A DNA stretch of 64,000 nt. It comes from Pseudoalteromonas nigrifaciens (lineage in GTDB: Bacteria; Pseudomonadota; Gammaproteobacteria; Enterobacterales; Alteromonadaceae). The notes below the pieces were generated by a model. That model ran no database searches. It worked only from the letters and a program-made list of their open reading frames with translations, and was not told where the DNA came from. The translations under genes and the position numbers were made by a program. How positions within the stretch are numbered: position 1 is the stretch's first letter; each line of letters begins with the position of its first letter. Shown here in pieces: positions 52,417-55,465 of this stretch. The DNA lies in NCBI RefSeq assembly GCF_002221505.1, contig NZ_CP011037.1, forward strand, positions 434,001 to 498,000. Direction: 5' to 3'.

Positions 52417-52626
52417 TTAGATAGCTACGATGTTTTCAGCTTGTGGGCCTTTTTGACCTTGTGTAACAGTAAACTGTACGCGTTGGCCTTCAGCTAGAGT
52501 TTTAAAACCGTCGCCAGAAATTGCGCTAAAATGTGCAAAAACGTCTGCGCCAGATTCTTGCTCGATAAAACCAAAACCTTTTGCTTCGTTAAACCATTTT
52601 ACTGAACCAGTAGTTGTATTAGACAT
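52417..52626 (-). CDS. Cold-shock protein, CspA family (copy 1)
   Basis: 69 aa from the ATG at 52626. A frame reaching to 52734 runs through the leader and is not used. It contains the RNP1 motif KGFGFIEQ and RNP2 VFAHFSAI, the nucleic-acid-binding surface of a single cold-shock domain. It binds single-stranded RNA or DNA and melts structure at low temperature. It differs from copy 2 only at a few residues (KWFNE rather than KFFNE, final VAI). Confidence 0.96.
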
Positions 52627-52771
52627 AATAATATCCTTAAAAATTAATAAAAGTGTGCCTGAAAATAGGCGATTGAGCCGGAAAAAACCTATATTTAACT
52701 TGAGGATAACGCGAAGGATTATTACTAATATCAACGTGGTACTTACAAATAAACAGTATTTCTTTCAAACT
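52627..52771 (-). promoter_or_regulatory. Leader of csp copy 1, conserved with copies 2 and 3
   Basis: A ~140-nt leader shared by all three csp genes. The best-conserved block (52701-52756) contains CCACGTTGATATTAGTAATA on the minus strand. Long csp leaders in enterobacteria control mRNA stability and translation with temperature, so the same is likely here. Confidence 0.6.
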
Positions 52772-52815
52772 TATATAAATAGATGGGTTATAAATAACCC
52801 ATCAACTTAAACATC

Positions 52816-53025
52816 TTAGATACAAACGATGTTTTCAGCTTGTGGACCTTTTTGACCTTGTGTAACAGTAAACTGTACACGTTGGCCTTCAGCTAGAGTT
52901 TTGAAACCGTCGCCAGAGATTGCACTGAAATGTGCGAAAACGTCTGCGCCAGATTCTTGCTCGATAAAACCAAAACCTTTAGCTTCGTTAAAAAACTTTA
53001 CTGTACCAGTAGTTGTATTAGACAT
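52816..53025 (-). CDS. Cold-shock protein, CspA family (copy 2)
   Basis: 69 aa, nearly identical to copy 1. RNP1 KGFGFIEQ and RNP2 VFAHFSAI are present, and the second aromatic of the surface is Phe (VKFFNEA). It probably arose by a tandem duplication of ~400 bp that included the leader. A transcript start within its own leader (53026-53170) is likely. Confidence 0.96.
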
Positions 53026-53170
53026 AATTGTATCCTAAGAAATTAATAAAAAATGTGCCTGAAAGTAGGCGATTAAGCTGGAAAAAATAAATATTTAACT
53101 TGAGGATAACACAAAGGATTATTACTAATATCAACGTGGTACGTACAAATAAACAGAACTTCTTTCAAAC
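53026..53170 (-). promoter_or_regulatory. Leader of csp copy 2
   Basis: Same arrangement as copy 1. Conserved block at 53101-53156. Confidence 0.58.
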
Positions 53171-53215
53171 TAATATTCATTAACGGGTTATTACTAACCC
53201 ATTAAATTAAACAAT

Positions 53216-53422
53216 TTAGATGCAAACAATATTTTCAGCTTGCGGGCCTTTTTGACCTTGTGTAACAGTAAATTGTACACGTTGGCCTTCAGCTAAAGTT
53301 TTGAAGCCATCGCTAGTAATTGCGCTAAAATGAGCAAAAACATCAGGGCCAGACTCTTGTTCAATAAAACCAAAACCTTTTGCTTCATTAAACCATTTAA
53401 CTGAACCAGTTGTTGTAGACAT
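53216..53422 (-). CDS. Cold-shock protein, CspA family (copy 3)
   Basis: 68 aa, one Thr fewer at the N-terminus. It is the most diverged of the three ([17 protein letters not shown]), but all RNA-binding residues are kept. Silent changes are more frequent than between copies 1 and 2, which suggests it split off first. Confidence 0.96.
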
Positions 53423-53552: not shown

Positions 53553-53849
53553 TTTCTATCAACCCGATGCGAAGTACTTTAACAGTAACCTCAGCCGGAC
53601 ATCAAGTTTTATTTAGATTTATTTTTACCACTAGCAAAACGTACTGGCTTTTACGGATTATAATTTGTTAAATTATTTCAGGTAAAGAACGTTATATTAA
53701 GCAGTAACTTAAAAGATGAATTACTTGTTAATTACAGTTTTTATTATATACAGCAAGATAATGAGCTGTACGAAGTTAAATTACTAACACTAGGGTCTTA
53801 TATGGACTCCCTATTAATGTCAAAAATAAAATTGAAATAAATTAGATGC

Positions 53850-53967
53850 TAGCTTATATACGGGCTCAAATTGAGGAGCTACCCCTGGCCTCAAATGTAT
53901 TCGCACCTTCATGACTTTTCTGTTGAGCAGTTTTTCAAACTTCAGACCCTAACAGTCTATTGAAGGT
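53850..53967 (-). ncRNA. Candidate bridge RNA (seekRNA) of the IS1111-type element
   Basis: Two hairpins with internal loops on the transposase strand. Target loop (53905-53967): outer stem ACCTTCA/TGAAGGT plus GACT/AGTC, inner stem AGTTT/AAACT. The loop strands are TAGGGTCT (53944-53951), identical to the plus-strand left flank of the insertion (53791-53798), and TCAACAG (53920-53926), complementary to the right flank CTGTTGA (55021-55027). Donor loop (53853-53900): stem TTGAGG/CCTCAA, with strands AUACAUUU, which can pair with the left IS end including a G-U pair, and AUAUAAG, identical to the other IS end. The position downstream of the transposase is that reported for IS1111-group guides. 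Confidence 0.75.
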
Positions 53968-54005
53968 CGGTCTTACCTATTTCAATCGATCTTTCTGACA
54001 AGTTT

Positions 54006-54951
54006 TTAAGCCACAAGTAATTGTGGCTGATAATCTTTGTTATGCTTTTGCATTGCAAAAGCCGTTCTGATTGTTTTATTTGCTAACGCTATTGCGGCTA
54101 CTTTTTTGCCTCGACGTACACTTAATTCTTTTAACCATATATCTTTTTGGCTACGAACTTCTCTTTTTTCTAGTTGTGAAACAACAGCTAATGCGCCTTT
54201 ATACAAAGCACTACGCAGCTTCTCGACCATTTTTAAAATGGGTTGTATTACCTAGTGCTATTTTAATCAGTATTGCACAGACCGGTCCCACGCCTTCTAA
54301 TGCTTGCAAGCGTATACAGGTTTGATCTTCTTTAATTACTTCATGCAATTGCTTTTCAATCAGCTTCACCTCTTCGACCGCCTCAGTAAAACGCTGATAA
54401 ACTCGGTTAATTGTGAAGCGAAAAGCGCCTGTTAGGCTGTTTTCAGCATCTTCTAATATCTCAGGTATCGCTTGGGTCAACTTCGTATCCCCTTGAGCAA
54501 TTGGGTAACCAAACTCTAACAATAAAGCTCTTAGTTGATTACCTAAGCTGACTTTTTGTTTGACTAATAAATCACGCATACATTCAATGCCTTGTAAGCA
54601 TTGCTCTTGCACTGAAAGTAAACGACTTCCTTTTATATGAGGCTGTCTCGCTGCAACTGAAATAGCCAGCGCATCATTTGCATCGGTTTTCTGCCCTTGA
54701 CGAAACGCTTTTACCTGTCGCGCGTTGATCGCTTTGATCTGGTGCCCTGCCTGTTTAGCAAATTGCGCCCAATAATGCGTACCACCACATGATTCCATAG
54801 CAACTAAAGATTGCTGTTCTTTAATTAATAACTCTTTAAGCTTGGCTCTGCTTATTGTTTTGTTATAAATAACTTTGCCATTGCTTTGCGTTTTGCAAAC
54901 TTGAAATAAATTTTTTGCTAAATCAATCGCTATCACATTACAATTCAACAT
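54006..54951 (-). pseudogene. IS110-family transposase, internally deleted
   Basis: The N-terminal RuvC-like domain has the DEDD residues: AIDLAKNLFQV, AMESCGGTHYW and KTDANDALAI. The Tnp_IS110 C-terminal domain begins at LEGVGPVCAILI and runs to HFKNGREAA, where the frame stops at 54211. The rest continues in another frame from LRSALYKGALAVV to the natural end at 54006. The ~40 residues normally between GREAA and this point, which carry the catalytic Ser (SSGGK-like motif), are missing. The protein should be inactive. Confidence 0.85.
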
Positions 54952-55465
54952 GTATGGGCTCCTTAGTAAAAGTTTGAACACTTATTACGTTACTTCTGAT
55001 GGAAGTGGGAGTCCATACATCTGTTGATCTTTCAAGGTTAAATTTGCAGCAGTGTGTTTGGTATTTAGGCAAGGCTGAGCCTATGTGGTGTGGTTATTCC
55101 CCATAAATAGGCGATAACGTAGCATCAATGCCAAATATGCGCTGCCCGAAGGGTTCTGCCTAGGGGCGATTAACTCTTTGTTGCTCGGTTTTTACTTAGC
55201 CCACTAGGTTACAAACCTCACGCCGTGATTAAATCGCCCCTAGTTTGAACAAATTTCAATCCGTAAAGGTCAACAGACCCTAGAGTAATAATCAATAAAA
55301 TCATTAATTAACAAAAGCTTATGTTGTTTTGTGTTTGATTCGGGTTACATGCACTTTTTAAATATAAAACGTATAAATTGGCAAAACGAATTTTGACTTT
55401 ATACTGCTGGCCCACTAAGTTATTTACTTATGTCGAGTGTTTAACAGTATTGTTATAGCTGTATT

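Follow-up and report, generated by a model that had tools for sequence, protein, structure and literature searches.

A decayed IS1111-type element with a predicted two-loop guide RNA, inserted in the end of a MITE-like repeat of Pseudoalteromonas nigrifaciens

Organization of the element and its transposase gene

The window, i.e., the whole stretch of 64,000 nt that was analyzed, carries on its minus strand an IS1111-type element of 1222 bp (53799..55020), the ends of which are common to its relatives; the element can also be taken to include one copy of the AG/CT core (53797-53798 or 55021-55022). In the transposase sense, the two junctions read ..GATCAACAG/ATGTATGGACTCCC and GGGAGTCCATATA/AGACCCTAG.. 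(the slash marking the boundary). The ends contain a perfect subterminal inverted repeat (sTIR) of 11 bp, located at 53801..53811 in RE and at 55007..55017 in LE, which is within the usual range of IS1111 elements (11-13 bp, with extensions of 7, occasionally 6, and 3 bp). When the repeat is counted as 10 bp, the extensions amount to 6 and 3 bp, provided that one core AG is assigned to the left end. Elsewhere in the window, at 52417-53422 on the minus strand, three similar small frames are arranged in tandem, the products of which resemble cold-shock proteins.

The frame at 54211-54981 (minus strand) matches both PF01548 and NF033542 ("IS110 family RNA-guided transposase"); starting from the ATG used by the relatives, the N-terminal part of the transposase (PF01548) occupies 54211..54951 on the same strand. 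Compared with full-length relatives, the window copy lacks 92 bp of the transposase gene near position 54223. This deletion shifts the frame, leaving the C-terminal remnant (54006..54230, minus strand) out of frame, and removes the GL-P----SG segment. The motif, which is described as conserved in the available part of a report on these elements (PMC11187229), is present as GL-P----S(T)G in the relatives L002, L003 and L004 and is absent from the window frames. The unbroken 345-codon frame of L002 contains PF01548 together with PF02371, i.e., the DEDD N-terminal and PF02371 C-terminal domains of an IS1111 transposase, while the window copy contains PF01548 only; NF033542 was also matched in a relative with an unbroken frame. 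Owing to the loss of these 92 bp, including the GL-P----SG segment, the window copy cannot give rise to an entire transposase and has probably lost the ability to move by itself. The original prediction, which had been made from the sequence of the window, was silent on this deletion and on the host repeat described below. Among the relatives, of which 80 of 90 were retained, the identity of the transposase to the query extended down to 31%.

In a DNA search of its own genome, the element matched only itself. A search of the phage collection gave no match, and Rfam gave no matches in the window at the gathering score. Further long open frames of the IS110 family are encoded in the genome: two have 329 codons (G000:C2:115631-116584 and G000:C2:91474-92427, neither with a DNA match to the element) and one has 357.

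The insertion site

The element interrupts a MITE-like repeat, of which a short end is located at 53793..53798 and the remainder at 55021..55280. Uninterrupted, the target would read TCAACAGACCCTA, with AG as the core. This 13-mer occurs nine times in the own genome, one occurrence being the other end of the interrupted repeat, versus none for the reversed control. The insertion site is the end of a repeat that occurs in high copy in the genus and has a length of ~265 bp, inverted ends and the terminal sequence GGGTCTGTTGA. In total, 20 matches to the repeat were detected in the own genome, some of them partial and one of them the window's own, and uninterrupted copies exist among them; the repeat was matched in 21 of the 41 genomes searched. 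Judged by their flanks, the relatives of the element occupy both ends of the repeat.

Of these 41 genomes, G101 is the only one, besides the own genome, in which both outer flanks match at length, and its orthologous place contains neither the repeat nor the IS. Since both are missing from that site, the repeat most likely arrived first, and the IS was then inserted into its end. At L010:1501-1555, a 55-nt remnant of RE (96% identical) has MITE-end-like sequence directly on its inner side.

The predicted guide RNA

The noncoding region downstream of the transposase gene, in the position known for IS1111 elements, is ~200 nt long (54006 to 53799). Within it, alignment A1 and the covariation therein support a predicted bridge RNA/seekRNA region with two loops (53849..53980, minus strand). 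In the order of the RNA, the target loop presents TAGGGTCT (53944..53951) followed by TCAACAG (53920..53926), and the donor loop presents AATACATTT (53893..53901) followed by ATATAAG (53853..53859), all on the minus strand. The two strands of the target loop had originally been read as matches to the two flanks, and they are: TAGGGTCT stands at 53791-53798 and again on the minus strand at 53944-53951, being the reverse complement of the flank adjoining the RNA-bearing end, and CTGTTGA at 55021-55027 corresponds to TCAACAG at 53920-53926, which is identical to the flank beyond the transposase end. The own flanks of the window copy thus fit the first guide in 8 of 8 positions and the second in 7 of 7. 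The complement of the top strand lies ahead of the match to the bottom strand in the RNA, which is the IS1111 order.

On the donor side, ATATAAG, the guide for RE plus core, equals the RE end and the core, and AATACATTT, the guide for LE, fits the LE end and core with one mismatch, possibly a U-G wobble. The donor hairpin had been described as having the same geometry as the target hairpin. This description is right, but, given the mismatch in AATACATTT, the correspondence is not fully exact.

The stems were analyzed in alignment A1, which comprises 35 distinct RNAs with ATGTAT left ends only and from which L028 was excluded; the outer stem of the donor hairpin, where the alignment is ambiguous, does not enter the count. 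Over the 19 named pairs, standard pairing was found in 90.9% of the cells. The number of stem cells changed on both sides was 157 versus 50.4 in shuffles, and was reached by none of 500 shuffles. By a weaker measure, the number of further pair types, the observed value was reached by 52 of 500. The RNAalifold consensus contains 13 pairs, all of them among the 19, and 11 of these show changes on both sides. The inner hairpin of the target loop is the weaker part: only 77.1% of its cells are paired, and it is absent from the RNAalifold consensus. Moreover, the set of 19 pairs was drawn by hand from two of the sequences in the alignment (L001 and L008), which biases the slide control. The stems of both hairpins are conserved with compensatory changes, an outcome in favor of the original prediction, in which this check had been proposed.

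The folding energy itself is ordinary, with a z of -1.26 for 212 nt (equaled or bettered by 24 of 200 shuffles) and of 0.18 for 121 nt (by 107 of 200), and in the minimum-energy fold some of the bases of the first guide are paired. The reading of the loops therefore rests on covariation. Single-sequence folding, with energies like those of shuffles, was dropped as evidence; as the RNA is not unusually stable, stability provides no argument, and the support comes from the relatives.

Guides and targets among the relatives

A total of 110 loci yielded 84 raw end pairs, both ends of which were within one mismatch of the set motifs, and 70 of these remained after the removal of duplicates. Fourteen were wrong-orientation readings of listed elements, leaving 56 elements, and L028 (deleted) and L035 (with a flank of 6 nt) were then excluded. 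The resulting set comprises 54 elements with 50 distinct RNA regions and 49 targets; a second copy in G103 (C33) and the copies in G091 without RE were left unscored.

In this set, the target guides follow the varying target. Summed over the 49 targets, the fit of the guides to their own flanks was 654, versus a maximum of 536 in 100,000 permutations, such that the observed sum was never reached. The mean fit, out of 15, was 13.35 for own flanks and 10.07 for foreign flanks. The first guide was fully matched in 18 of the 49 targets (versus 0.5% for foreign flanks) and the second guide in 31 (versus 5.8%), while the own flanks were the sole best fit in only 23. Over the 54 elements, the own score was 11 in 4 elements, 12 in 8, 13 in 16, 14 in 9 and 15 in 17. 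Relatedness was lessened by taking one element from each of 21 clusters, in 20 random draws with 5,000 permutations each; the own sums then ranged from 272 to 284, the highest permuted sum was 240, and none of the 5,000 permutations reached the observed value in any draw. The 49 targets include MITE ends, sites with an attC-like appearance, and others. Together they provide 49 naturally occurring pairs of guide and target for this IS1111 clade, and the original prediction's proposal, that loop strands should follow the flanks in copies at varied sites, agrees with what was found.

Within the close group, only one base of the first guide varies (T, C or G), and it complements the own flank in all 8 two-ended elements, which carry 4 distinct RNAs. 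In L033 and L005, which are truncated copies, the first guide departs from a full match at one position. Matches were also present in 10 plasmid records, of which four, fetched after the permutation test, were examined. L180 is a full-length plasmid copy, 98.5% identical to the window copy; its transposase frame is unbroken and its guide region is identical to that of the window copy. As its flanks show, it lies in another copy of the MITE-like repeat, at a site with a score of 15 of 15. L182 and L183, both from plasmids of Photobacterium, also score 15 of 15 each; one guide base differs between them, and the complementary flank base differs as well. In these two elements the core is not common to the flanks, the left being AG and the right beginning with AA. 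The original prediction had named the same loop strands at an unrelated site as a finding that would count against it. One such case was seen in the close group, namely the plasmid relative L181, which has the same guides as the window copy and a site that fits in 11 of 15 positions, a miss; the remaining copies leave the prediction standing.

It is conceivable, though we consider it somewhat less than an even prospect, that this IS1111 lineage is an RNA-guided hyperparasite of one MITE family, in which the guide base would track variants of the MITE end and guide and MITE would coevolve. The pattern to which this would refer is a guide base of T, C or G against a flank base of A, G or C. A search of the literature on IS110, MITE and target site in Pseudoalteromonas returned no report.

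The deleted element L028 (L028:1501-1719; G021:C8:6553-6771) is a mini-element of the clade, 219 bp in length, which has kept both ends and the donor loop but no longer has the first target guide. The same genome contains the longer copy L005, and the guide of L005 is matched by the right flank of L028, AGTCCCTA, a hint of movement in trans; the left flank of L028 fits poorly. No second full copy of L028 was found in 108 genomes. An origin by reaction at an internal end-like sequence was considered for this one case.

Donor guides, core and junction promoter

In the donor guide, the two bases following ATATA are AG in 27 of the 28 elements with AG on both sides (in the other one the motif was not found) and CG in all 10 elements with CG at the left. 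With these two groups taken together, the donor guide follows the core in 37 of 38 elements, as in bridge RNAs. Another 16 of the 54 elements have AA at the left (12 of them with an RE ending in ATGTA), and in these the core rule is only partly followed or the motif was not found.

At 53818..53823 (minus strand), TTGACA would provide the -35 half of a predicted circle-junction promoter, 17 bp from TAAGAT. When RE, core and LE are joined, TTG occupies the -35 place in 37 of the 43 elements counted, and TAAGAT or TACGAT the -10 place in 39 of 43. A promoter at the circle junction has been reported for the IS1111 family, in the part of the account available (PMC11187229). The family is further characterized by a circular intermediate and by an RNA that co-purifies with the transposase and is required for movement; in the present clade, what the sequences show of this is the junction promoter motif in the relatives.

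An inverted copy of the LE repeat covers the ribosome site and start codon of the transposase gene (54950..54962, minus strand). In a read-through RNA (54940-55020, minus strand), a predicted hairpin would hide the transposase start (z -3.97, equaled by none of 200 shuffles). In 27 of 55 relatives, at least 11 of the 13 bases of the inverted copy match; when single elements were shuffled, the count never exceeded 12. The start-codon hairpin may insulate the transposase gene from outside transcription, and transcription from the junction promoter would start within the repeat.

Interpretation and alternative explanations

The locus is almost certainly a decayed IS1111 element, of a kind in which a seekRNA/bridge RNA and the transposase would direct insertion into the ends of the MITE-like repeat. 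The noncoding end downstream of the transposase gene would encode the RNA, the target loop of which would pair with both strands of TCAACAGACCCTA and the donor loop with both ends of the IS, united at the core AG. RNA and transposase together would then direct insertion, in one orientation, into the high-copy repeat ends (GGGTCTGTTGA). The sequences themselves show the guides and how these fit the flanks of many different targets, as well as stems that covary, the interruption of the repeat and an orthologous site lacking both repeat and IS; transcription, RNA binding, pairing and strand exchange are steps that we infer from them. That guide and site change together in related copies argues that the bridge-RNA reading is right, and the initial assignment to the IS1111 bridge RNAs holds, with guides that track targets and stems that covary. 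The guide RNA was readable by eye from one raw window and was then confirmed by comparison alone.

The flank matches were initially judged very unlikely to have arisen by chance. The window contains 127,974 13-mers when both strands are counted, and for 6 of them the 212-nt region holds both guides without a mismatch, at an order and spacing that are loosely comparable. The other end of the same repeat accounts for one of these, leaving five chance matches that fit as exactly as the insertion site; the ordinary folding energy would likewise suit an explanation by chance or by selection by eye. Among 4,000 random 13-mers, none scored 15 of 15 and 4 scored 14. It is the comparison across relatives that decides, since the sum observed for the 49 targets was reached by none of the 100,000 permutations, nor was it reached with one element per cluster, and chance or selection by eye now appears a negligible prospect. 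Alternatively, the transposase itself might read the target, the loop matches being fossils of target DNA that the IS had once captured at its end. Copies in the close group do have nearly the same target, so the matches there are not independent; however, each arm of a covarying hairpin holds one of the matches, the two correspond to opposite strands and their order is fixed, and the pattern holds for differing targets across transposases down to 31% identity with the query, which renders such fossils very improbable. Both explanations were set aside by the full and the one-per-cluster permutation tests.

A further question concerns the present role of the window copy, whose guide RNA might now serve other transposases in trans instead of its own. 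Its guide region is identical to that of the full-length plasmid copy despite the broken gene, and the other long open IS110-family frames of the genome could be thought to supply the protein. The own genome contains no further DNA match to the element, and we regard such service in trans as unlikely. The preferred reading remains that of a decayed element whose RNA and transposase would have directed its insertion.

Comparison with known systems

In its DEDD transposase, downstream noncoding region and sTIR, the element resembles ISEc11, ISKpn4, ISPa11 and ISPst6, as far as these are described in the available part of the report (Siddiquee et al. 2024, PMC11187229). IS1111 guide RNAs are stated there to have the complement of the top strand first, before the match to the bottom strand, as in the window element, and the circle-junction promoter of that family is here a predicted one. 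In contrast to the IS1111 seekRNA elements of that source, the window element has another target, its transposase gene is broken and its RNA is predicted from sequence. The target and donor loops, with two guides each that include the core dinucleotide, resemble those of the IS110/IS621 bridge RNAs in the accessible portion of the corresponding study (Durrant et al. 2024, PMC11208160). Unlike the window element, the IS110 type described there has its RNA upstream and the reverse order of target guides, and the core also differs from that of IS110/IS621, being AG on the transposase strand and CT on the other. The element had been presented as not a standard example, a view we do not share, as its architecture, guide order and noncoding position are those described for IS1111 in the parts of these sources at hand (PMC11187229, PMC11208160).

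The choice of mobile-element ends as a target is also familiar. The IS1111 members IS4321 and IS5075 are said to have been described by Partridge and Hall in 2003 as targeting the terminal inverted repeats of the Tn21 family; the window element is similar in targeting such ends, its host being a MITE-like repeat and not a member of the Tn21 family. In Coxiella burnetii, IS1111 copies are inserted in QMITE2, the target being called a GTAG palindrome (PMC5896051). That MITE differs from the present one, and the available part of the source does not mention a guide RNA. These insertions of IS1111 in QMITE2 (PMC5896051), together with those reported for IS4321/IS5075 in Tn21 ends, set a precedent for a target of this type. 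By the time the mechanism was published in 2024, IS1111 elements were already known to insert into a MITE and into the ends of transposons, and the element described here adds a new, decayed member to the IS1111 seekRNA/bridge-RNA class reported in that year.
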